A stretch of 23,942 nucleotides of DNA from a virus. Location: IMG/VR virus record IMGVR_UViG_3300010885_008261, positions 1 through 23,942 of that record. One strand, written 5' to 3'. Below, in pieces: positions 3,849 through 23,257 of this stretch (the stretch's first letter is position 1; each line of letters begins with the position of its first letter). The notes beneath the pieces are model-generated. The model ran no database searches and was not told the origin of the DNA. It saw nothing but the letters and a program-made list of their open reading frames with translations. A program made the translations under genes and the position numbers.

Positions 3849-3897
3849 TAAAGCGAGGAAACAACCCCCTTTTAATAAAATGAAAGAGGTGAGATAT

Positions 3898-4569
3898 ATG
3901 GCATATAGCCGTGGTTCAAGTAGTAACATTATCGTGGGTGCAGCAGCACTTTTTACACATAATGATGGTCCAATCGGATACACAGATGCAGGAACGATTA
4001 CTGACGCACAAGCAGCGACAGATCTTCCATCATTTGCAGGATCAGCAACATCTTACAAGGATACACTCTCAACAGATGGTGGAACACCAAACTGGGCAGA
4101 GAAGTTCACAAACGTAGGATATACATCAAATGGTTTGGAACTAGCATTCCAGCCTGATTTTGGTGAAGTAGCAGTAGATCAACTTCTCGACGTTGCTCGT
4201 TTATTCAAGCAAGGTATGACAGTTAATCTAAACACTGCATTCGCAGAAGCAACACTAGAAAATCTTTTGGTTGCAATTGCAGATAATCAAGACCCAGTAA
4301 CAGCATCAGGAGCAACATCAATTAAGATGTCTGCTGGTGATATTGGTGACGTTCCACTAGAGCGTGGACTCGTAGCAGTAGGACCAGGTTCTGGTTCTTC
4401 TCTAGAGCCAAAGGAAAGAATCTATGTTGCATACCGTGCACTCTCAATCGAGAGCGTAACAGTATCAGCAAAGCGTGACGAGGCTTCAATGTTTGAAGTT
4501 TCATTCCGTCTTCTTCCAAATGACAACGCATCATACGGTAAGATCGTAGACCGCACACTGTCAGCATAA
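3898..4569 (+). CDS. major tail (tube) protein
   Basis: 223 aa. The chosen ATG at 3898 follows an AAGAGGTGAG Shine-Dalgarno (3884-3893). An in-frame ATG at 3880 would place that site inside the coding region, so it is unlikely. The sequence is polar, strand-rich and Gly/Thr/Ser-rich, with no membrane segments. It contains AEKFTNVGYTSNGLELAFQP, a basic strand (VTVSAKRDEASMFEVSFRLL) and a final KIVDRTL strand, as in tube proteins that stack as hexamer rings. It sits between the tail terminator and the chaperones, has its own promoter and terminator, and uses CGN for 7 of 8 arginines, matching the capsid gene. High expression and the tube role follow from these together. Confidence 0.85.
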   Translation: MAYSRGSSSNIIVGAAALFTHNDGPIGYTDAGTITDAQAATDLPSFAGSATSYKDTLSTDGGTPNWAEKFTNVGYTSNGLELAFQPDFGEVAVDQLLDVARLFKQGMTVNLNTAFAEATLENLLVAIADNQDPVTASGATSIKMSAGDIGDVPLERGLVAVGPGSGSSLEPKERIYVAYRALSIESVTVSAKRDEASMFEVSFRLLPNDNASYGKIVDRTLSA

Positions 4570-4587
4570 TACAACTTAATATATGAG

Positions 4588-4621
4588 AGGCTCAATCCTT
4601 CGGGGTTGGGCCTTTCTGTTT
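4588..4621 (+). terminator. rho-independent terminator with UUCG loop
   Basis: An 11-bp stem (AGGCTCAATCC at 4588-4598 with GGGTTGGGCCT at 4603-4613, two T-G pairs) is closed by the stable TTCG tetraloop and followed by a T-rich tract (TTCTGTTT). It lies 18 bases after the tube gene stop. It is the clearest terminator in the window and insulates the tube transcript from the chaperone genes. Confidence 0.85.
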
Positions 4622-4629
4622 GGTATACT
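4621..4629 (+). promoter_or_regulatory. extended -10 promoter (TGGTATACT), leaderless-type
   Basis: TGG precedes TATACT (4624-4629) immediately after the terminator T-tract. No -35 is possible in good form, since that position is inside the terminator stem. The box ends 6 nt before a GTG at 4636, so the predicted transcription start is at or next to the start codon. Confidence 0.6.
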
Positions 4630-4635
4630 TATATA

Positions 4636-5313
4636 GTGCCTACAGAAATATACAAGACCTCTATAATTGAACTCTTTGATGGAACAGAGTTGTATATCAC
4701 CCCATTAAAAATAAAATATTTAAAGTTGTTCTTAGAAGAATTTGAAAATGTAAAAACATCAAAAAATGATGATGAGGCAATTAACTATTTGTCTAAGTGT
4801 GCAACAATAACAATGAGACAATATTACCCAAGCATAAAGACTCAGGAGCAGTTAGAGGATAATATCGATATGCCAACAATCTATAAACTATTAGATTACT
4901 CTGCTGGAATTAAAATAAATGAAAAATCTGAAGAGCCAGTAAAAAAGCAAGCAAAAGAAAGCGGTTCTACTTGGGATGAGTTAGATTTAGCAGAGTTAGA
5001 GGCTGAGGTATTTTTGCTGGGGATTTGGAAAGACTATGACGAACTAGAATCTTCAATGTCAATGCCAGAGATAGTAGCAACTCTTAAAGTAAAAAGAGAT
5101 CTTGATTACGGTCAGAAAAAGTTTTTGGCTGCCATGCAGGGTGTTGATTTAGATAAGGCTAGTGGTAAAGAAAATGCTTGGGAAGACATGAAGGCTAGAG
5201 TCTTTAGCAAAGGGTCTGCAACAGGTGGCAATGATATTCTTGCACTACAAGGTGCAAATGCACAAAAGGCTGGGTTTGGAATTGGCATGGGCATTGATTA
5301 TGAGTCATATTAA
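4636..5313 (+). CDS. tail assembly chaperone, long form (G-T-like)
   Basis: 225 aa from the GTG at 4636. An upstream in-frame TTG at 4606 lies inside the terminator stem and is rejected. No Shine-Dalgarno precedes the GTG, and a -10 box ends 6 nt away, suggesting leaderless translation. Residues 1-95 are paralogous to the next gene: IELFDGTELYITPLK matches ITLIDGTEIAVRPLK, and DMPTIYKLLDYSAG matches DLPTVYEIIDAASG. A charged linker (about 95-110) leads to a second domain (TWDELDLAELEAEVFLLGIW, then QKKFLAAMQGVDLD) resembling the T half of tail chaperones. The Gly-rich tail ends in YESY. Such proteins bind the tape measure and recruit tube subunits and are absent from the virion. An A_AAA_AAG heptamer lies in frame at 4941-4947, in the linker. 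Confidence 0.72.
   Translation: MPTEIYKTSIIELFDGTELYITPLKIKYLKLFLEEFENVKTSKNDDEAINYLSKCATITMRQYYPSIKTQEQLEDNIDMPTIYKLLDYSAGIKINEKSEEPVKKQAKESGSTWDELDLAELEAEVFLLGIWKDYDELESSMSMPEIVATLKVKRDLDYGQKKFLAAMQGVDLDKASGKENAWEDMKARVFSKGSATGGNDILALQGANAQKAGFGIGMGIDYESY
4941..4947 (+). promoter_or_regulatory. possible -1 ribosomal frameshift site (A_AAA_AAG)
   Basis: In the reading frame gtA AAA AAG (Val-Lys-Lys, residues 102-104) the bases form the classical -1 slippery heptamer known from dnaX. A shift here would add ten residues (ASKRKRFYLG) and stop at the TGA at 4977-4979, giving a ~114-aa protein that keeps only the first chaperone domain. I did not identify a convincing downstream stem or a strong upstream stimulatory Shine-Dalgarno. 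The location exactly at the domain linker is the main support. Confidence 0.35.
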
Positions 5314-5336
5314 TACTAAAAAATAAGCCTGTGCTA

Positions 5337-5345
5337 TGGTATAAT
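5337..5345 (+). promoter_or_regulatory. extended -10 promoter (TGGTATAAT)
   Basis: TGG plus a perfect TATAAT (5340-5345) in the 57-base gap between the two chaperone genes; no -35 is seen. Predicted start is near 5352, next to a 10-bp perfect palindrome, CCTTATAAGG (5354-5363), that overlaps the Shine-Dalgarno of the next gene. The promoter would serve the short chaperone and probably the tape measure. Confidence 0.6.
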
Positions 5346-5370
5346 TGACTAAACCTTATAAGGAGGAACT

Positions 5371-5697
5371 ATGGCTGACAAGCCTTTAAACAAAAAGACA
5401 ATCACACTAATAGACGGAACAGAGATTGCGGTAAGACCTCTTAAGTTGTCACTACTTAGACCTTTCATGGCTAAGTTTGCGCTGCTATCAGAGGCATCAG
5501 ACGATAACGATAAGTCAATGGACATTCTTATTGAATGTGCTTTAATTGCAATGAAACAGTTCAAGCCAGAATTGGCAGAGAGCAAGGAAGCACTAGAAGA
5601 ACTTCTAGACCTTCCTACAGTTTACGAAATTATTGACGCAGCATCAGGTGTTCAAAACTCTGATTCAAGCGCAGTATTAACTTCGTTAACAAAATAA
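5371..5697 (+). CDS. tail assembly chaperone, short form (G-like)
   Basis: 108 aa. The ATG follows a strong AAGGAGG (5360-5366, 4-nt spacing). Almost the whole protein aligns with the first domain of the preceding gene: the I-x-L-x-DGTE strand start, PLKL helix, a Cys-Ala-x-x-x-Met helix (ECALIAMKQF against KCATITMRQY) and the D-x-PT-x-Y-x-x-x-D-x-x-x-G end. It lacks the T-like domain and stops 21 bases before the tape measure. No open frame follows that a frameshift could enter, so the short form is hard-coded. It would act together with the long form in tail assembly. Its own promoter and strong ribosome site suggest it is made in excess over the long form, as G exceeds GT in lambda-like phages. 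Confidence 0.75.
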   Translation: MADKPLNKKTITLIDGTEIAVRPLKLSLLRPFMAKFALLSEASDDNDKSMDILIECALIAMKQFKPELAESKEALEELLDLPTVYEIIDAASGVQNSDSSAVLTSLTK

Positions 5698-5718: not shown

Positions 5719-8700
5719 TTGGCAGATGTAAACTCTAATATAAATATTAATTTTAATACGGCTGCCGCTCTCGCACAACTTAGATCACTTCAGGCAGGCC
5801 TCAGTAAGTTCCATCAAACACTTGCTGAGGGTAACCTGGCTGCTGCAAATGCTCAAAAAGGTTTAAACGCTCAACTCTTACAATCTATCGGAGCAACTGG
5901 AAAATTCTCTGCAAGTCAAGTTAAGGTTGCGGGAAGTACGCTAGCCTTTACTTCTGCTTTAGAAAAAAATAAACTATCTCTTCGTGAGTACTACAGATAC
6001 ACAATGGCAGCAGCAACTGCTAATACCCGTGTTATGGGTAAGGCTTTTGCACAAGAACGAGAAATTATTAATCGTGCTCGTAGAGATAGGGTAAAGTCTT
6101 TACAGTCACAATACATTCAAATGAACAAGGCCAACTCTGGCTTTATGGATGCCATTAGGGTTATGCCTAAAAGCCTACAAATGGCTGGTGGAAAATTCAC
6201 GGAACTTGGAACAAGAATTCAATATGCTGCACAAAGACAGCAGTTCCTTAATCAACTACTAAAGCAGGGATCTACACAACTTCTTAACTTTGGTAAGAAT
6301 ACTCAGTGGGCTGGCCGTCAGTTGATGGTTGGTCTTACAATGCCATTGGCTTTGTTTGGCTCAGCAGCAGCAAAAGCATTTAAAGAGTTAGATGCTGAGA
6401 TTGTAAAGTTTCGTCGTGTATACGGAGATGCATTTACAAATGATGCAGAAGTTGAAGCAGCAGTACAAAACATAAGAAAATTAGGAACTGAATATACAAA
6501 ATATGGCGTAGCAGTAAAAGATACAATGAATATGGCTGCTACAGCAGCAGCAGCAGGTTTTACAGGTAGCGGTCTTACCGCTCAAGTTGAAACAGCAACA
6601 AAGTTGGCAGTACTAGGACAAGTAGAGCAACAGCAAGCACTTGAAACAACTATTTCTTTACAAAGTGCATTTGGAATTTCTAGCGAAGAACTTGCAAAAA
6701 AGATTGACTTTCTTAACGCAGTGGAAAACCAGACACTTCTATCTATTGAAGATTTAACAATTGCAATTCCAAAAGCAGCACCAGTTGTTAAACAACTTGG
6801 TGGTTCTGTTGAAGATCTAGCATTCTTCCTTACAGCAATGAAGGAAGGTGGAATTAATGCATCAGAAGGTGCAAATGCACTTAAGTCTGGCCTTGCATCA
6901 CTAATTAACCCATCTGATAAAGCAGCAAAGTTTATGGGCAATTTGGGAATTAATATTAAAGGACTTGTTGAAGCAAACAAAGGAGATATAAAGGGAACAG
7001 TAGTTGGATTTGCAAGAGCGCTAGATGAACTTGACCCATTAAATCGTGCAAGAGCAATTGAACAAATGTTTGGAAAGTTTCAGTTTTCACGTCTGTCTAC
7101 ACTTTTCCAAAATGTAACAAAAGAAGGATCACAAGCATCAAGAGCATTTGATTTAGCAGGCGCATCAGTAGAAGAGTTAGCAATTATCTCTGAGCGAGAA
7201 ATGAAAAAGATAGAAGAGTCAACTGGAGTCAAGTTCCAAGCAGCACTAGAAAACCTTAAGCAAGAAATTATGCCTTTAGGAAAAGCATTTCTTGAAGCGC
7301 TAACCCCAGTTGTTAAGTTTTTTGGAAACCTACTTGAAAAATTTAATGGTCTTGGAGATAACACAAAGAAAGTAATTGCAATAATTGTTGCAGCAGTAGC
7401 AGGACTTGGACCAGTGTTATTGATGACCTTTGGTCTTTTGATGAATGGTGTTGCAAATGTTATTAAGTTCTTTGCAATGCTTCGTGGAGGGATAGCAAAA
7501 CTAAACGGACAGACAAATGTAATGGGTGCAGGATTTAACTACATGACTCAAGAGCAGATTGAAAACGCTGCTTCATCTCAACAACTGCATCAAACACACA
7601 CAAGATTGATAGAAGTTTTTAATGTTGAAAAGGCTTCTGTATCTGCACTTGCTGCATCATATAATTCTTTATCTACACAGATGAGATCGATGGCATCACA
7701 GAACCCAGCATTATTTGCTGGAGGAATGGGTGGAGCAAAAAGAGCGGTAAGCAAGTTACCACCAACAAAAAAGTATAAAGAGGGAATTATATCTGTGCCA
7801 GGTCCAAAGGGTGCTGGAGATGTTGTCCCTGCAATGCTTTCTCCAGGAGAAGCAGTTATACCTACAAAGACTACTGATAAATATAGAGGCCTAATTACAG
7901 CAATGTTCCAGGATAAAGTTCCAGGATTTATGGCTGGAAGAATTCCAGGAGGACCAGGAAAAGGTCTTCCACTATCTGCGGGGCCAGCAGCAGTACGAGT
8001 AGCGCAGCAAGCAAAAAATCAAAGAATAAGCGATGCCCGTCAAGGGTACTCAGAGCCACATCCAGAAAGAAAGTCTGGTCCAACTTTTGTTGGTATGCCA
8101 AAGGGCTCTGCAGAGACATCACAGTCTAGACAAATTTTAGACAAGATATCAGGTCAAGTTCTTACTGGAAGATTTGGATCTGTTCCTCCAACAAACTTTG
8201 GAACGATGCTTCAATCATTTTCTGGCAGAAGTTTTCCTGCTCGTGGAGTTGGCGGGGTATACAGAAAGCCTAATGGACAAATCGTAGTAGTAAAACCAAC
8301 AATAGATGATAAGACTGCCCTAGCAGAAGTTCGTGCCACTCAGATTGCTAGAGAGGTTCATGGACTTGTCTCACCAAAACAAACTATTAAAACAATGATG
8401 GATCCAACAGACCCAACAGGACAAAGAAAGTTTATAGTTATTGAGTCTCCATACGATCCAAGAATTGCTGCCATGAGTGGTAAGTTCTCAAAGTCTGATA
8501 TGGTTAAACAATTAGTTGCATCAACACTAAGAGGAGACAAAGACTTACAAAGACCAAACTTGTCTGGCAATGTGTTAGCAGATGTTGGAACTGCTGGAGT
8601 ATTTGATAGAGCATCTGGATTTAGAGATTTTTCTAAAGCAATGCCAAGCATGGAGCAGCAAGCGATTATTAATTTACTTGGTGTAAAGGGTGGAGCAAAG

Positions 8701-11700
8701 AAATTCTTTGCACAAGAAACATCAGGTATTGCTGCAAAGATGACTCCAGCACAATATGACGCAGCAATTAAAGAAGAAATTAATAGATCTATTCCAAGAC
8801 TAGAAAAAGTTCTTAAGTCTTTTAATTTGGATCCAGCAGAGCAAATTGTATATGGAGATATGCTAAAAAGACTTAAGGCTGGAGCAACCACAGATTGGTC
8901 TAAACTTCATCCAATGCATACAAAAGCAGGAGATGGGGTTGTAAAGGCAATAGAGGGAATTGACCCTGATGCTCCAAAATCTTTATTAGAAAAACAACTT
9001 GCAAAATATAATGTTCCTGAAGGACAACAAGTTTCCAGATTAGTTAATGATCTTAAAGCATCTGCACAAAGTGAGTTTACAAGTAAATTAGGAACACTTG
9101 ATCCACAAAGAAGAGCCATTGTTGAAGCAGCATGGTCTGGTGGCAAGGCAGTAGTTCCTCCATCAGGGAAAGAACAATCTTTTAATACTCCAAGACAGAC
9201 AGCCTTCTTAGATGAAATATCAAAAATGGTTCCAGTAAAAGTTGGGGATGAAATAAAATACGTTCATAAAGATGACTACGAAAAGTTTAAGTTAGATCCT
9301 GACGGAAGAGCAAGATACGCAAGATCATCTAAGCAAGTTATAGACAATATGCTTTATAGAATGGGAGTAACAAAAAGAGGAGACTCTTTTGTTGCTGGTG
9401 GAGGGTTTACTGGAAGATTTGCTGGAGTAGATCACTTTAAAACAGATCTAAAGTCTACTGGAAAAACTGCTGGAGGAGGAAGCGCAACACTTTCTCCAAT
9501 TGTAAGATCTATTGCTGATGCACAAAAAGCAGAATTTAATGCAAGAGTTGGAGATCCCCTTAAAACTAAAACAGGAAAGGCTATGCTTGCTGCTGGCTTT
9601 ACTCCAGATAAGGTTAGATACTTCTTAAGACCAGAACTGTCTCATATTGTTCCTACAGAATCTCTAGGTATTGGTGGTAGAGAAGGAGCCCTAAAGATGA
9701 AGACTGGAACTGCCCAGTACGATTCCCGCCTCCTAAATACATTTATGCTTGCAAAGAAAAGAAGTTCTAATATACTTGATTGGAATGGCCCTAAAAATCC
9801 TTTACGTTTAACAGATGCACAAACACAAGAGTATAAAAAAGCAGCAGACTTTATGGCAAGAGGATTGCATCCATCAACAAAAGAAGAAAGAGCATTAGTT
9901 GCAAAAGCAGCAGAACTAGATCAGAGAGTCTTTAAATTTAAAAAAGATGGAGGATCAGTATCAGCAAAACTTCTTCCTAAAGACATTAGACTATCTCAAG
10001 CACTAAGTACCGTTCTTGGTGACAAAGCATTTGTGCCAAGCAAAATTATGAATCTTGCTGCAACTGATCCAAGCCAAGTATTGGTAAAGCCTGGAGAGTA
10101 TAAATTAGATAAAAATACTGGAACACTAACAAAACTAACAACAGCAAATACTGGACCAAAGCCCCCAGGAACAGTTCCAAGCACTAATAAGCAATCAGAC
10201 AGAAGACTTTCATCTGAAGGTCCAGGGCAAACAACTCTTACAAAAACTCAAGCAGCAAGAATTGCTACAGCCAGAGGGCTTCGAGTTATTCCTGGAAGAG
10301 ATAAGGGAGACCCAGGATTAAGAAACCCTACAGTAAAGCAAGGCCAGTTAGCAACAGAGTTACGTGCTAAAGGATTTAATCAATCTGAAATTGATAGAAC
10401 TCTTAGAAGGTTTGCAGAAAGAGAATTAAAGGCTAAAGAGGCTCAAGCACAGGCATCTGAAAAAGCAGCAAGAACCGAAGCAGCAAGACAAAAAGAGCAG
10501 GCAGGAATACAAAAACGACAAACAGAGGCAGCAAGAAAAGCATTTGTAGAAAGTGAACGTAGAGCACAACTTAATGCCGCCCAAGCAAGAACTTATGATG
10601 CTGCAGTAAAAGAAGATCAGCAAAGAACTATAAAGGCTCAGAAACAAACACAAAGAGAGCAGTCTAAGCAAAATAGAATTGCTCGTGCAGAAAAAGTAGG
10701 AAGAATGTCTGGCGGAGCATCTATGGCTCTTGGTACTGCGGGTATGGGCTTGATGATGGCTGGCCAAGAAAAGGCTGGTATGGCAGCAATGGGAGCATCT
10801 GCGATTGCAGGTATGGCTCCTATGTTTGCTCAAATGGGTCCACTTGGTATAGCCTTAACTGCAATAACAGCGGTAGGTGGAGGATTATTCTTATTAGATC
10901 AAGCATCAAAGAAAGCAGCCCAAGCCCAATCTAAAATGGTTGATCAAACATTTGCAACAGCAGAAAAAATGAAGGGTATTGGTGCTCTTACTGGAAAGGT
11001 TGGAGCAAGTGAAATTTATGATAGAAAAAGACAGGCAAATGCATCTGACAGATATACAACTGGATTTGACAGAGGCAAAGAGCAGTTTGGTGCTACGTTC
11101 TTAGAAAATGAAGTAGGTAAAGATGTAATGGCTGGATTTACTAAGAGCCTGGCATCTGGATCAGATACAGCAGCAAAACAGATGGCTATCCAACTTGCTG
11201 GATATGTTTCAGACGGAATCATGAGTGCAGAGCAAGCACATAGTGTAGCAAGTCAAATTGGAATTAACCTAAACAATACAAGCCTTACATCTCAAATTAG
11301 TGGACAACTTCTAGATCTTATTGGTCCAGGCGGGGAAGACTTACTTAAAGATCCACTTAAGGTAAGGATGAACTTGGTACAAGAGCAAAGAGGTCTTACT
11401 ACACAGGCTACAGGATTGCTTGAAAAAGAAATGGCAAATCCAACTGACGAGTGGACAGATTGGACTTTAAATGATAATGCAAAAGCCTTGGCAGCATCTA
11501 CAGCAGCAATGGGTGTACAAAATTTAGAATTTAGCAAAGCGCAACAAGACTCTCTTAATGCTCAATACGACAAAGACCTAAAGATACTTGAAACAAGAAA
11601 AGCAGCAACTACAGACGCAGCAAAACTAAAAGCAATAGATGCAGAAATATTAGCCCTATCTGATAAGAGAGCAGCAGGACTAGCAGAGTTAAGAGCAACC

Positions 11701-14700
11701 AACGAAGATATAATGAAAGATCAGTTGGCTGCCTTTAAGATTGCTCAAGGCAAAAGCGATGTAGAGGATGCATTCTTTGAGTCACTAAAGGAACAGGTAA
11801 AACTAAAGTCTGAAGCAACGGGTCAAGGGGCCTTTTCGGACACATTCTTAAAAACATCTGCAGATCTAGATAGCAAAGAACTAGAAGTTAAAATAAATAC
11901 TATCGTTGCATCTGGATCAATGCCTACCGCAACAGCAACATCATTGTTAGAAATGTTTGGTGATGATGAAGCAGGACTTGAGAAGTTCCTTGACGTAACT
12001 ACAAAAATGCAAGACCCAGGTAAAGTTACTCAGTTGATTAACTCCCTTGGTGGATTTAAGGGAGGAAAATCTAAAGCAGTTGTAAAAACAATTATGGCTA
12101 AGATTGCAAATGGAGATCCAGAAGAAGCAGACAAACTAGTTTCAACAATCACCCTTATGGAAAAAATGGATGGTAAAGAAATTAATCTTGAGGCATTCTT
12201 TGAACAAGAAGATGCTATGGATAAACTTAAAAAACTTCAAGGAGAACTTGAAGTAGTTGAGAATATGCCAACACCAGTTACAAAAGAGGTAATATCTAAA
12301 TTAGATACTGACGGAGATGGTACAGTAGAAAATCTGGATGGTCTTCTTGCTGTATGGGATCAATGGGGAAATCTTCCAGATGAAATAAAGAAAACAGTTA
12401 TTCAGGAATACATTACAGTTAAGAAAACAATAGGACAAGGCGATATAGATGCGTTTACTAAAGAAAAGATTGCAGCAGCAGGTGGAGCAGGAACTGTTGC
12501 AGACTATTGGGCATCTCCTGCAGGGCAGCAGGCTGCTATTGATCAGATCGCAGCAACTCGAGCAATGCAATCAGTTAAGCAAAATCAGTTATCAAAAGAT
12601 GGTGGAGCATACGATGGTGGCGACAAGCCTGGTGGTAAAAAAGAAGATCCATACGCTTTCCTTTTATCAAGACTAAAGAATGTTAGAAATGCAGCAATCA
12701 ATGCAGCAGGAGGTATTGCAGAATTAAACAAGGCTCTTAAGGCAGGAAACTCTAAATCTGTTCAGGATAGGTTTAGAGGAGTAGAGCAACAGATGAATGC
12801 CAAAAAACTTAATGCTGAGTTTATTGACTTTGTAATGGGACAAGACCCAGAAGAGCAAAAGAAATACTTTACTACAGCAGGGTCTAAAATTAAAAAGGGT
12901 AAGAATAAGGGCAAGATTGCAGACCCATATAATAAAGGCAAGTTCTTGCCAGAAGAAACAAAAACAGGAGATGTTGTTTTATCTACTCTTGGAAAAACCT
13001 ATAATAAGGGCTTTGATGCAGCAGTAGTTGGAGAGTTCAATGTCGGTGCACAGAAATCCCTAGATATATTAAAGAAGCAAGATGTTGTAAGACGTAAACT
13101 AGTTGCTGCTGGATATGACGCTGCCTCTATAGAAAATATTTTACAAGACGAGTATACTACTTCAGCAATTGAGGCTGGCAAAATAACTCAAAACGAATTA
13201 GATATTAATGCTCAACTAACTAAGCAGTTAACTAATAGACAAAAAATTAATAGCATGATTTCTAGAGGTACAGCAGCAATTCAGGAACAAAAAGATAGAG
13301 AAAAAATTCCAGATGTTGCAAAATTCTTAAAGAGTCAGGGTGTATCAAATGATTCTCTAAGATCTATTATTGGTGACCCAGATCAACTATCAGAAGCAAT
13401 CGCAGCAATGGATGAGTATGAGTCAGGGGCTGCTGGTGCAGCAAAAGCATTAGAAGAAATTGTTGCTGGTCTTAAGGCTATACAGGCAAACTCAAATATT
13501 AAGGTTGCAATTGAGTTTGCAACAAGCAAGGTTGCAAGTCAGATTCAACAGGGCTATGAGTCAGCACAGAAAATTATGGACTCAAAGAGAACTATATATA
13601 ATAATTTAAGTTTAGAAAAATTAGGCAGCGCAACTTCAGAATATGTAGGCACAGGCAAAGCGGCTCAGCAAGTCGGAGCCATTGCAAAAGCAACTGTAGA
13701 CAAAAGATATGCAGATACAAAAACTGTAATACCAACTGTTGGCGCTAACCAAACTATAAAAAGCATTCAGGCAGAGAGAGCAACAAAGGCTAAATCAATA
13801 AGTCTTTCATCTGCAAACCTTCAATCTGCTCAGAATGCTCGTGCAGCAGTAGAAAGCCAAATTTCAAATGCCGAAAATGCTTTGCAAGATGCAGAGGCAA
13901 GAGCAAATGAGGGTGTTGATAACGCAATTAAGGCAGTTCAAAATGTAATTAAGGGTTATCAAAATCAGATTAAGGCAATAGAAAAAACCATAAAGGGTAA
14001 AGAAGATGAGATAAAGAAACAGTATACAGACAAAATAGAAGTCCTTAATAAAGAAAATCAAGTGTATAGCAACGACCTTGCAATAATGGACAGGGCTGCA
14101 GAAGACATTAATGAAAAATATGACAAACAAGTTGAGGCATTGCAAAAGGTAAATGAGTTAAATCAGCAAATAGTTGAATCTCAAGGCCAGCAACTAGACC
14201 TAGCAGATGCTCTTACATCTGGAGACATAGCAGCAGCAGCAAGGGCTGCCCAGGCAATGAGAGCAAGTTCTGCTGCAGCCCAAGGCGATGCCATGATGCA
14301 GGGTCTTGAAAATTCTAGAACAAACGAACTTGATTCTCAAAAGGGTCCAGAAAGCGGAAAGACAAGAAAAGAGATTTCACAAAGACAATTTGATATATCT
14401 CAGGAAATATACAAACTAGAAACAGATCCCAAGAGATTAGAAATAGAAAAAGAAATCTTAGCACTAAGAGAAAGTATTATCCCAATACAAGAAGACATTA
14501 TTCTAAAAGAAGAAGAAATTAATGGACTTGAAGAAGGAAGAGCAGCGGTCGTTGCAGCAGCAGTAGCGTCTCAGAAAGCAGCAGTTGAAGCATTAAAGGC
14601 TTCTTTGGTACCACTTGATGCTGCAGTGGCATCGCATCAGGGCATTCTGGACGCATTAGAAAAAGATGATGCTTTGCTAGAAGCCCAGGAAGGATATTTG

Positions 14701-15669
14701 ACAGCAATTGCAGAAGAAGCAGTAGCAGTTGATGATACTACTGGTATGACTCTTGAAAAGTGGGCAGAAACAGTTGACAAGGTTATGTCAATTGAAGAAT
14801 TAGCAATTGAGTATGCAAAGGCAACTGAGGCAGCACGAATTGCCGTTGACGCAGCAAATACTTCATGGGGTGAGATCTTAAAAAAGATTAATGAAATTCC
14901 TAAGAGTGTATCAACAGAGCACCTAGTTAAAGAAATTAGAACTGTAACTACAGTATTTGATAGCGCTGCATCAGATGCAGCACAAGCAGCCGCTGCAGCA
15001 ACAACTCAAACTGCTCAACAAAAAGCAGCAGCAACAGCAGTAGCATTAAGAAAACTAACTTCTGGACAAAAACTTACCCCAGAAGAAAGAGCCCTGCTTG
15101 CTATGGGTCCAGAAACAAATTCTGATGAAGCAGACGCACAAGCAAAGGCAATTGCTGAAAAAGCAGCAGCAGATAAGGCAGCAGCAGAGGCATTAGCCAA
15201 AGCAGGAATGTATGATCCAGACAATGCATCTCATAAGGGATCAAAAGAACAAGGACTGGCACTTTATCCATGGATAAGAACTCTAGGCGCAGCAGCAGAT
15301 GCAACCCTTAAAGGATATGGATATTGGGCAAAGGGTGGAATAGTTGCTCCAGGAAGGACTGCTCGTGGTGTTGGGGCACGTAAGTTTGCTGCTGGAAATC
15401 TTGCAAGAGGCACTGACACAGTTCCAGGAATGTTAACACCAGGAGAATTTGTAATGAGCAAGTATGCAGTTGACACTCATGGTATAAATACTATGACGGC
15501 AATGAATAATGGAAAATCAGCAGGCGGAGCAGTGTATAATAATACATATACATTAACAGTTAATGCAAAAACAGATGCTAATCCAAATGAAATTGCACAA
15601 GCAGTCATGTCAACAATTAGACAGGTTGATGATAGAAGAATTAAGGGGGTGTCACTAAATGGCAGATAA
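5719..15669 (+). CDS. tape measure protein, giant (3316 aa)
   Basis: Starts at TTG (5719) behind AAAAGAGGTG (5701-5710); there is no nearby ATG. It sets tail length and is expelled at infection. Residues ~190-500 look like a TP901-type tape measure core (GLTMPLALFGSAAAKAF, then helices). Hydrophobic segments lie at ~552-590 (IAIIVAAVAGLGPVLLM) and ~1665-1715. Residues 700-711 (GDVVPAMLSPGE) and 3233-3243 (DTVPGMLTPGE) repeat the motif usually found near the C-terminus. Residues ~825-1050 resemble a kinase-like fold (see findings). D2196-D2207 form an EF-hand-like loop (DTDGDGTVENLD). Residues ~2670-3010 are long coiled coils rich in Ala/Glu/Lys. No lysozyme or peptidase motif was seen. If fully helical at 0.15 nm per residue it would span about 500 nm; folded inserts would shorten that. 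It overlaps the next gene by 11 nt. Confidence 0.95.
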   Translation: MADVNSNININFNTAAALAQLRSLQAGLSKFHQTLAEGNLAAANAQKGLNAQLLQSIGATGKFSASQVKVAGSTLAFTSALEKNKLSLREYYRYTMAAATANTRVMGKAFAQEREIINRARRDRVKSLQSQYIQMNKANSGFMDAIRVMPKSLQMAGGKFTELGTRIQYAAQRQQFLNQLLKQGSTQLLNFGKNTQWAGRQLMVGLTMPLALFGSAAAKAFKELDAEIVKFRRVYGDAFTNDAEVEAAVQNIRKLGTEYTKYGVAVKDTMNMAATAAAAGFTGSGLTAQVETATKLAVLGQVEQQQALETTISLQSAFGISSEELAKKIDFLNAVENQTLLSIEDLTIAIPKAAPVVKQLGGSVEDLAFFLTAMKEGGINASEGANALKSGLASLINPSDKAAKFMGNLGINIKGLVEANKGDIKGTVVGFARALDELDPLNRARAIEQMFGKFQFSRLSTLFQNVTKEGSQASRAFDLAGASVEELAIISEREMKKIEESTGVKFQAALENLKQEIMPLGKAFLEALTPVVKFFGNLLEKFNGLGDNTKKVIAIIVAAVAGLGPVLLMTFGLLMNGVANVIKFFAMLRGGIAKLNGQTNVMGAGFNYMTQEQIENAASSQQLHQTHTRLIEVFNVEKASVSALAASYNSLSTQMRSMASQNPALFAGGMGGAKRAVSKLPPTKKYKEGIISVPGPKGAGDVVPAMLSPGEAVIPTKTTDKYRGLITAMFQDKVPGFMAGRIPGGPGKGLPLSAGPAAVRVAQQAKNQRISDARQGYSEPHPERKSGPTFVGMPKGSAETSQSRQILDKISGQVLTGRFGSVPPTNFGTMLQSFSGRSFPARGVGGVYRKPNGQIVVVKPTIDDKTALAEVRATQIAREVHGLVSPKQTIKTMMDPTDPTGQRKFIVIESPYDPRIAAMSGKFSKSDMVKQLVASTLRGDKDLQRPNLSGNVLADVGTAGVFDRASGFRDFSKAMPSMEQQAIINLLGVKGGAKKFFAQETSGIAAKMTPAQYDAAIKEEINRSIPRLEKVLKSFNLDPAEQIVYGDMLKRLKAGATTDWSKLHPMHTKAGDGVVKAIEGIDPDAPKSLLEKQLAKYNVPEGQQVSRLVNDLKASAQSEFTSKLGTLDPQRRAIVEAAWSGGKAVVPPSGKEQSFNTPRQTAFLDEISKMVPVKVGDEIKYVHKDDYEKFKLDPDGRARYARSSKQVIDNMLYRMGVTKRGDSFVAGGGFTGRFAGVDHFKTDLKSTGKTAGGGSATLSPIVRSIADAQKAEFNARVGDPLKTKTGKAMLAAGFTPDKVRYFLRPELSHIVPTESLGIGGREGALKMKTGTAQYDSRLLNTFMLAKKRSSNILDWNGPKNPLRLTDAQTQEYKKAADFMARGLHPSTKEERALVAKAAELDQRVFKFKKDGGSVSAKLLPKDIRLSQALSTVLGDKAFVPSKIMNLAATDPSQVLVKPGEYKLDKNTGTLTKLTTANTGPKPPGTVPSTNKQSDRRLSSEGPGQTTLTKTQAARIATARGLRVIPGRDKGDPGLRNPTVKQGQLATELRAKGFNQSEIDRTLRRFAERELKAKEAQAQASEKAARTEAARQKEQAGIQKRQTEAARKAFVESERRAQLNAAQARTYDAAVKEDQQRTIKAQKQTQREQSKQNRIARAEKVGRMSGGASMALGTAGMGLMMAGQEKAGMAAMGASAIAGMAPMFAQMGPLGIALTAITAVGGGLFLLDQASKKAAQAQSKMVDQTFATAEKMKGIGALTGKVGASEIYDRKRQANASDRYTTGFDRGKEQFGATFLENEVGKDVMAGFTKSLASGSDTAAKQMAIQLAGYVSDGIMSAEQAHSVASQIGINLNNTSLTSQISGQLLDLIGPGGEDLLKDPLKVRMNLVQEQRGLTTQATGLLEKEMANPTDEWTDWTLNDNAKALAASTAAMGVQNLEFSKAQQDSLNAQYDKDLKILETRKAATTDAAKLKAIDAEILALSDKRAAGLAELRATNEDIMKDQLAAFKIAQGKSDVEDAFFESLKEQVKLKSEATGQGAFSDTFLKTSADLDSKELEVKINTIVASGSMPTATATSLLEMFGDDEAGLEKFLDVTTKMQDPGKVTQLINSLGGFKGGKSKAVVKTIMAKIANGDPEEADKLVSTITLMEKMDGKEINLEAFFEQEDAMDKLKKLQGELEVVENMPTPVTKEVISKLDTDGDGTVENLDGLLAVWDQWGNLPDEIKKTVIQEYITVKKTIGQGDIDAFTKEKIAAAGGAGTVADYWASPAGQQAAIDQIAATRAMQSVKQNQLSKDGGAYDGGDKPGGKKEDPYAFLLSRLKNVRNAAINAAGGIAELNKALKAGNSKSVQDRFRGVEQQMNAKKLNAEFIDFVMGQDPEEQKKYFTTAGSKIKKGKNKGKIADPYNKGKFLPEETKTGDVVLSTLGKTYNKGFDAAVVGEFNVGAQKSLDILKKQDVVRRKLVAAGYDAASIENILQDEYTTSAIEAGKITQNELDINAQLTKQLTNRQKINSMISRGTAAIQEQKDREKIPDVAKFLKSQGVSNDSLRSIIGDPDQLSEAIAAMDEYESGAAGAAKALEEIVAGLKAIQANSNIKVAIEFATSKVASQIQQGYESAQKIMDSKRTIYNNLSLEKLGSATSEYVGTGKAAQQVGAIAKATVDKRYADTKTVIPTVGANQTIKSIQAERATKAKSISLSSANLQSAQNARAAVESQISNAENALQDAEARANEGVDNAIKAVQNVIKGYQNQIKAIEKTIKGKEDEIKKQYTDKIEVLNKENQVYSNDLAIMDRAAEDINEKYDKQVEALQKVNELNQQIVESQGQQLDLADALTSGDIAAAARAAQAMRASSAAAQGDAMMQGLENSRTNELDSQKGPESGKTRKEISQRQFDISQEIYKLETDPKRLEIEKEILALRESIIPIQEDIILKEEEINGLEEGRAAVVAAAVASQKAAVEALKASLVPLDAAVASHQGILDALEKDDALLEAQEGYLTAIAEEAVAVDDTTGMTLEKWAETVDKVMSIEELAIEYAKATEAARIAVDAANTSWGEILKKINEIPKSVSTEHLVKEIRTVTTVFDSAASDAAQAAAAATTQTAQQKAAATAVALRKLTSGQKLTPEERALLAMGPETNSDEADAQAKAIAEKAAADKAAAEALAKAGMYDPDNASHKGSKEQGLALYPWIRTLGAAADATLKGYGYWAKGGIVAPGRTARGVGARKFAAGNLARGTDTVPGMLTPGEFVMSKYAVDTHGINTMTAMNNGKSAGGAVYNNTYTLTVNAKTDANPNEIAQAVMSTIRQVDDRRIKGVSLNGR

Positions 15670-22341: not shown

Positions 22342-22797
22342 ATGGCAGATAAAGGAATTAAAAATGTTGTTATTAAAAAAGAATTTCTTGGAAAAGTAAC
22401 TTCTTCAAATTCTAGAGTTGTTAGATTTAGAATTGTATCAGAAGATAAAAATAGAAAGTCTGCTTACTCAAAAATATTTATTGCTGGATCTGATGTTATA
22501 GTTACTGGACCAGGGGATATAAATAAGGTTGGCAATACTATCTTGGTAAATTGGACAACTGGCCAGGCATCAATACAAATAACATATGATATCTTTGTGG
22601 GCTTTGATGGAGCAACTCCAACATACTTAGATTCAACTGGCTCAAAAAGTTATTCTTTTTTAAAAAATGGAACACAGTCTGTGAGAGTGGTTGTTCAGAT
22701 ATCTTCCACAAGTCCAAAACTTGAAGATGTATATGATCAGAACAATGTAAGAACAAACCACTTAGAAGTCTATTCGGGAACCTTGAGTCTGGTATAA
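22342..22797 (+). CDS. small minor tail protein, beta-sandwich-like
   Basis: 151 aa, two bases after the previous stop, with GGGGG (22330-22334) as ribosome site. The sequence alternates short strands and turns (VVRFRIVSEDKNRKSAYSKIF, then NKVGNTILVNWTTG, SIQITYDIFVGFDG, SVRVVVQISS), which looks like an Ig- or fibronectin III-type sandwich. Its start (IKNVVIKKEFLGKV) is basic. The position between two fibre-like genes suggests a tail-tip adhesion or spacer subunit. Its stop codon (TAA, 22795-22797) lies inside the -10 box of the next gene's promoter. I cannot name the family. Confidence 0.5.
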   Translation: MADKGIKNVVIKKEFLGKVTSSNSRVVRFRIVSEDKNRKSAYSKIFIAGSDVIVTGPGDINKVGNTILVNWTTGQASIQITYDIFVGFDGATPTYLDSTGSKSYSFLKNGTQSVRVVVQISSTSPKLEDVYDQNNVRTNHLEVYSGTLSLV

Positions 22798-22798
22798 T
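22790..22798 (+). promoter_or_regulatory. extended -10 promoter (TGGTATAAT), leaderless-type
   Basis: TGG plus perfect TATAAT (22793-22798) overlaps the end of the upstream gene. The box ends exactly 6 nt before the ATG at 22805, the same spacing as at 4629/4636. No Shine-Dalgarno occurs between them (TAGATT), so the expected mRNA starts at or next to the ATG. No -35 is visible. Confidence 0.6.
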
Positions 22799-22804
22799 TA
22801 GATT

Positions 22805-23257
22805 ATGGCATCACTACCCGTTCCAGAGCGTGGACAACCTTTAGACGTAACCTATATATATGAGATTGTTAAATCTATTAATGATTTATACAGTCAGTTA
22901 GGCAGCGAGTCTAGAAAAGGTTATGTTGGAGTATATACCAAAGGACCAGAAGGTCCACAAGAAATGAAAACTTCTGAGGCTCAAATTGAAGCGGCTTTTA
23001 CAACAGTATCACCAGCATCACTTCAACCAGCAGGAACTTCTCTTTCTTGGTCTCACGACTTTAAAAAACAGTTTGCATATCCTCCAATTGTAACAGCCAC
23101 ACCATATAATAAAGACATCACAGATTCAGGAAAAGGTGTAACAGTTACAATTAACAGCATAACAACATCAAAAGTTGAAGGATTCGTTAGGTTTAATGTT
23201 GGAGGAGAGACTCCCATAGGAATTAATATTATAGCGGTTGGAAAACCTACGTCGTGA
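22805..23257 (+). CDS. tail fibre tip protein, H-type lectin-like
   Basis: 150 aa. The ATG lacks a Shine-Dalgarno but follows a -10 box at leaderless distance. Residues ~10-40 are helical (TYIYEIVKSINDLYSQLGSE), a likely trimerisation or docking stretch. The second half (LSWSHDFKKQFAYPPIVTAT, then VTVTINSITTSKVEGFVRFN and INIIAVGKPTS) has the pattern of the H-type lectin-like sandwich found at fibre ends: 'F-x-x-F-x-x-PP-x-V-x-x-x' followed by 'V-x-I-x-x-I-T-x-x-x-x-x-x-F' and a final 'I-x-x-I-A-V-G'. The likely role is binding of host surface glycan. Its separate promoter would let it be made in greater amounts than the other tail-tip genes. It overlaps the next gene by 4 nt (GTGA). Confidence 0.6.
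   Translation: MASLPVPERGQPLDVTYIYEIVKSINDLYSQLGSESRKGYVGVYTKGPEGPQEMKTSEAQIEAAFTTVSPASLQPAGTSLSWSHDFKKQFAYPPIVTATPYNKDITDSGKGVTVTINSITTSKVEGFVRFNVGGETPIGINIIAVGKPTS

Follow-up and report, generated by a model that had tools for sequence, protein, structure and literature searches.

The window, by which we mean the whole 23.9-kb virus record analysed here, carries genes from the capsid-protein end onward through the tail genes. Between a major tail protein (MTP) gene and a very long tape measure protein (TMP) gene lie two open reading frames encoding proteins of 225 and 108 aa, both found where an earlier sequence-only reading had placed them. The locus comprises the following features:

3880..4569, + strand: major tail protein gene, so named from the annotation of relatives; its product falls in phrog_2175 (E=3.7e-30), whose annotation is 'protein with Ig domain'
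4585..4616, + strand: predicted hairpin of an intrinsic terminator, 3' of the tail protein gene and just 5' of the GT promoter (14-pair stem, MFE -23.4 kcal/mol, z = -6.4)
4619..4629, + strand: extended -10 TTTGGTATACT of the predicted GT promoter, 6 nt from the start codon
4636..5313, + strand: GT, a putative fused tail assembly chaperone of 225 aa with a GTG start and G and T in a single frame
4636..4944, + strand: G1, the G-like domain of GT and the faster-evolving copy (phrog_10504)
4941..4947, + strand: in-frame A_AAA_AAG in the linker of GT, slippery-looking but shared with the closest kin of the window alone
4972..5310, + strand: T-like domain of GT (phrog_10474), which aligns with the T frames of Streptomyces phages
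5335..5345, + strand: extended -10 TATGGTATAAT of the predicted G2 promoter, near-invariant in 156 of 158 distinct upstream sequences
5360..5366, + strand: Shine-Dalgarno sequence AAGGAGG of G2
5371..5697, + strand: G2, a putative G-only tail assembly chaperone of 108 aa and the conserved, ancestral-like copy (phrog_10504)
5719..15669, + strand: tape measure protein of 3316 aa, the expected client of GT and G2 (phrog_10030, E=8e-99, over the first 1200 aa)

The resulting order, MTP-GT-G2-TMP, is the position expected of the G/GT chaperone family. The ORF list begins the long frame at TTG 4606 (235 aa); we take GTG 4636 (225 aa) as the start because relatives start at the same position, with ATG in 186/196 and GTG in 9/196. 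At 9.95 kb, the tape measure gene (5719-15669) is near the longest reported, which suggests a phage with a very long tail; the tape measure genes of Gordonia phages Hotorobo and Monty are about 9.98 kb and their tails about 540 nm (PMC4982279).

The two chaperone candidates share one domain. The first 100 residues of GT are homologous to the whole of G2, with 34% identity over 90 aa by BLASTP (E=2e-20) and a profile-profile probability of 100% over 99 columns by hhalign (E=2.6e-41), and both proteins match phrog_10504 (E about 6e-20 to 2e-19 for GT and 5e-16 for G2). The proposal that a G-like domain is repeated in the 225-aa and 108-aa proteins is thus upheld, strongly so in the profile comparison by which it could have failed, and the motif pairs quoted in its favour are found in the BLASTP alignment of G1 with G2. 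The C-terminal half of GT had been called T-like, and it indeed matches phrog_10474 (E about 1e-16 to 2e-16), to which the stand-alone T ORF of Streptomyces and Rhodococcus phages belongs, so that it shares ancestry with the T frame in frameshifting chaperones and does not belong to an unrelated family. The short and long products therefore share an N-terminal domain, and T is present on the long one only, as in the chaperone family.

Names for the two domains come from annotated relatives. A tblastn search matched 130 phage records, nearly all of them Streptomyces phages of 120-135 kb, plus Rhodococcus phages; the Streptomyces records that were opened belong to Stanwilliamsviridae. In the opened Streptomyces and Rhodococcus records, G and T are two ORFs between the major tail protein and the tape measure genes, with T in the -1 frame. 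Many matched records carry a tail assembly chaperone annotation, and NiceHouse, Francesca and TunaTartare have an explicit frameshift join. Because these two ORFs, the second in the -1 frame of the first, are annotated in many records as tail assembly chaperones, we assign the first domain of GT to G and the second to T, as these names are used for lambda G/GT (PMC5009743). One unfused relative (L316) also matches phrog_344, 'tail assembly chaperone' (1.3e-4). In the records of BillNye, Jay2Jay, Genie2, Coruscant and Faust (L003-L006, L237), G and T are listed as separate or hypothetical and the join is unannotated, though T lies in the -1 frame.

A search of BFVD with the predicted structure of the fused GT (mean pLDDT 76) gave a match at 1.2e-4 to a tail assembly chaperone from an uncultured phage and weaker matches to the GT of N15 (E=0.014, prob 0.77) and the EfaCPT1 chaperone (E=0.07). 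Fold and sequence searches of the PDB with the chaperone proteins returned no significant solved structure, searches of Pfam and NCBIfam no significant family match, and a search of GTDB genome contigs no relative. A chaperone function for GT and G2 is nonetheless the natural reading of their homology; as members of this family they would be expected to bind the tape measure protein, to recruit the major tail protein and to be missing from virions.

To place the fused gene among its relatives, G and T profiles were used to sort 394 records from IMG/VR scans and annotated phage regions; four of them are cut at a contig end. At testable fused loci, a second G gene lies directly downstream in 344/344, as against 0/39 unfused loci, annotated phages included, 37 of which have ample downstream sequence. 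Fusion without G2 was considered as a separate state and set aside, all seven such cases being contig ends with 155 nt or less remaining. Some contigs count as more than one locus, and removal of identical sequences leaves 201 fused and 32 unfused distinct loci. Each of 11 fused contigs of 105-122 kb encodes exactly two G and one T, and one long unfused contig (101 kb) encodes one G and one T. Fusion and the second G thus always occur together at testable loci, which bears out the earlier suggestion of a duplication, and among the classified relatives no intermediate was found, either a frameshift gene with G2 or a fused gene without it. Metagenomic assemblies do contain indels, and a single such error could in principle make a frameshifting gene appear fused; the fused frame, however, recurs across many metagenomes (201 distinct sequences), and its longer linker has a conserved make-up that is not a one-base change, so this explanation is refuted by the comparative data and we give it practically no credence.

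A WhiB-family gene is present, one each, in 12/12 contigs of 101-122 kb (L047, L077, L053, L045, L152, L285, L305, L271, L188, L381, L352 and L141). Since annotated relatives also have actinobacterial hosts, an actinobacterial host is likely for the phages with fused loci. The phage lineage with fused loci is aquatic.

Loss of the slippery site accompanies the fusion. In all 32 distinct unfused loci, CCCAAAY, GGGAAAM or CCCGGAA lies at the frame overlap, and the nearest unfused kin (L251, L258, L271, L282 and L296) have G_GGA_AAC in every case. The fused GT has neither T in another frame nor a conserved heptamer, being a single continuous frame whose G and T domains are joined by a linker of the type 'IKINEKSEEPVKKQAxESGSTW'. 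Heptamers occur in that linker at background frequency (20/123 against 16% expected). G2, for its part, has no T-like extension: its -1 frame stays open for at most 59 nt past the G2 stop. The earlier proposal that frameshifting has been replaced agrees with this pattern of heptamers at background in fused genes and present in every unfused relative, and an evolutionary replacement of recoding by two genes is well supported by these comparisons. As a separate matter, the CCCGGAA found at the G/T overlap of many Streptomyces phages, 9/32 distinct unfused loci (L004, L005, L006, L238-L243), is not a canonical X_XXY_YYZ heptamer.

A vestige of recoding could still be imagined at the heptamer in the window. 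A dnaX-like -1 slip at A_AAA_AAG (4941-4947) would lead to a nearby stop and produce a short G from the fused gene, leaving G2 as an accessory. The window and its closest kin do have an in-frame A_AAA_AAG in the linker, and some other relatives have A_AAA_AAA. However, slippage here as a conserved mechanism is rejected by the background frequency of linker heptamers, the lysine pair is not conserved, and G2, the better conserved of the two copies, accompanies the fused gene wherever the locus is testable. We therefore regard residual recoding as very unlikely, and the A_AAA_AAG, confined as it is to the closest kin, is probably a chance occurrence.

Phylogenies of the two domains indicate which G copy is derived. 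In the G tree, G1 is monophyletic (100/99), as is G2 (97/91), and both form one clade with the nearest unfused G (99/86). Within it, G2 groups with the frameshifting G of those unfused kin (99/96), to which it is 52-63% identical, as against only 38-42% for G1. Mean p-distances are 0.50 for G1 and 0.35 for G2, with G1 exceeding G2 in 92% of genome pairs, and the distances of the two copies are poorly correlated (r=0.17). Because G2 is closer to the unfused G and slower, and G1 faster, G2 by these measures is the conserved, ancestral-like G that keeps the old role and layout, and the fused copy is derived. In the T tree, a single, weakly supported branch (53) sets the fused T sequences apart, a hint that the fusion may have had a single origin.

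The grouping of G2 with the G of unfused phages, and not with G1, would also be expected if G2 had entered by horizontal transfer, as an independent small gene of the tail module, and had not arisen by duplication of this gene. Yet all three kinds of G fall in one clade, the AU test does not reject (p=0.22) a topology that pairs G1 with G2 and leaves the nearest unfused G outside, and the long branch of G1 may itself account for its position in the tree. G2 also sits at one fixed place in all fused relatives. These observations make an independent origin of G2 improbable, and we favor duplication.

The signals at the two starts differ sharply. Upstream of GT, only 6 nt separate the extended -10 from the start codon, from which a leaderless transcript is predicted. 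A TATAAT-like hexamer (at least 5/6 positions) is present in 131/132 distinct GT upstream sequences, compared with 79/132 in a shuffled control; in 112/132 the -10 ends 6-9 nt before the start codon, and a Shine-Dalgarno sequence was found in 0/132. By -10 spacing and the absence of a Shine-Dalgarno sequence, the fused GT would be translated from a leaderless mRNA. Many relatives have hairpin-like sequence at the terminator position. The sequence-only reading had described a leaderless GTG start, of which the leaderless setting is conserved and the GTG is limited to close kin of the window, most relatives using ATG. A strict leaderless-start pattern is present at the fused gene in 41/55 representatives, at G2 in none, and at other genes in eight places. 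Elsewhere in the window, a second leaderless-looking start is formed by TCTGGTATAATTAGATT (22788-22805) followed immediately by the ATG of a 150-aa ORF at 22805.

G2 has the opposite arrangement. Its promoter in relatives is a near-perfect TATGNTATAAT, and TATGNTATAATT is nearly invariant 5' of the gene, typically 24-28 nt from the start; the -10 of GT, TA[T/A/G]A[A/C]T in sequence logos, is less consensus than that of G2. An SD-like core precedes G2 in 154/158 distinct sequences (~98%), and GGAGG or longer in 147/158. Readable upstream regions of unfused G genes nearly all contain a promoter and a leader, mostly with a purine-rich SD, like those of G2. The claim that each gene has its own promoter, with a leaderless long form and AAGGAGG for the short form, therefore extends beyond the window, these features being conserved in more than 130 distinct relatives. 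A promoter with a Shine-Dalgarno sequence is also found in the structural region at 787-814, where TGATATAAT and AAGGAGG lie 5' of a 141-aa ORF at 814.

We consider it highly probable that a chaperone locus of the lambda G/GT type has lost programmed -1 frameshifting through duplication and fusion. Because no intermediate was seen, the route and order of events are offered as the best explanation. The ancestor would have had a single gene making G and, through -1 slippage at a heptamer like G_GGA_AAC, also GT; a single duplication of this G(T) gene would have followed. The copy lying upstream would have brought G and T into one frame, so that it makes long GT only, from a leaderless mRNA and with a promoter that fits the consensus less well. 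The other copy, lying downstream, would have retained the promoter and Shine-Dalgarno layout of the frameshifting G and lost T, making short G only. G2 would then coat the tape measure protein, and GT would recruit the major tail protein. In the best reading of the start signals, the G2:GT ratio would depend on how strong the two promoters are, on the leader and on initiation, with transcription running on from the GT promoter into G2 as a probable further contribution, in place of a recoding ratio; the signals of GT suggest that it is the minor product.

The two copies may instead have specialised for different clients or timing, for example with GT as a tail-tip initiator and G2 as a coat, and not substitute for a recoding ratio at all. 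The divergence and rapid, poorly correlated evolution of G1 fit such a division of labor, and separate promoters permit separate timing. G1 and G2 nevertheless share a predicted fold and core motifs and both lie beside the tape measure gene, and G and GT of lambda already have distinct roles (PMC5009743). We hold specialisation to be a possible but less likely account, and one that overlaps with duplication and fusion and does not exclude it. Returning to the replacement of frameshifting, we think it likely that duplication and subfunctionalisation effected it throughout a lineage of abundant, WhiB-carrying phages, in which the leaderless gene would provide the minor product and the Shine-Dalgarno gene the major one.

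In most long-tailed phages, a short G and a long G-T chaperone are made from one gene by ribosomal frameshifting, a textbook example of conserved recoding that is frequently put down to a requirement for a fixed product ratio. A large lineage without the frameshift suggests that selection keeps the product ratio and not recoding as such, and it makes this idea testable. The lineage also provides an ordered comparison set, in which one gene occurs in frameshifting and in split states, and a striking, conserved contrast between predicted leaderless and led starts in two paralogues.

Tail chaperones without an evident frameshift were known before. Those of Microbacterium cluster EA phages are two 'separately expressed' ORFs, with no fused GT and paralogous G described there (PMC7302621), and further chaperones of this kind are reported in PMC10885494. 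Open-access full texts yielded no description of a fused GT alongside a paralogous G gene, and this arrangement appears to be new. The nearest unfused kin are the five IMG/VR contigs named above, whose G groups with G2 and one of which (L271) carries WhiB like the fused contigs; unlike the fused loci, they keep G_GGA_AAC and the -1 T frame and lack a second G. Stanwilliamsviridae (cluster BE Streptomyces phages, among them Jay2Jay, Genie2, BillNye and TunaTartare) and the Rhodococcus phages NiceHouse and Francesca have homologues of both domains in the same gene order, but with one G copy, T in the -1 frame at a slippery heptamer, and a G promoter plus leader. In lambda, gpG and gpGT come from one gene by a -1 frameshift at about 30:1 (Levin 1993; Xu 2004, 2013 and 2014, as cited in the review PMC5009743), and T4 is noted as an exception in the same review. 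The locus described here resembles that of lambda in having a short G and a long G-T with a common N-terminal domain, in lying between the MTP and TMP genes and in the expected excess of the short form; it differs in that two paralogous genes, without a conserved frameshift site, stand in place of the one frameshifted gene.
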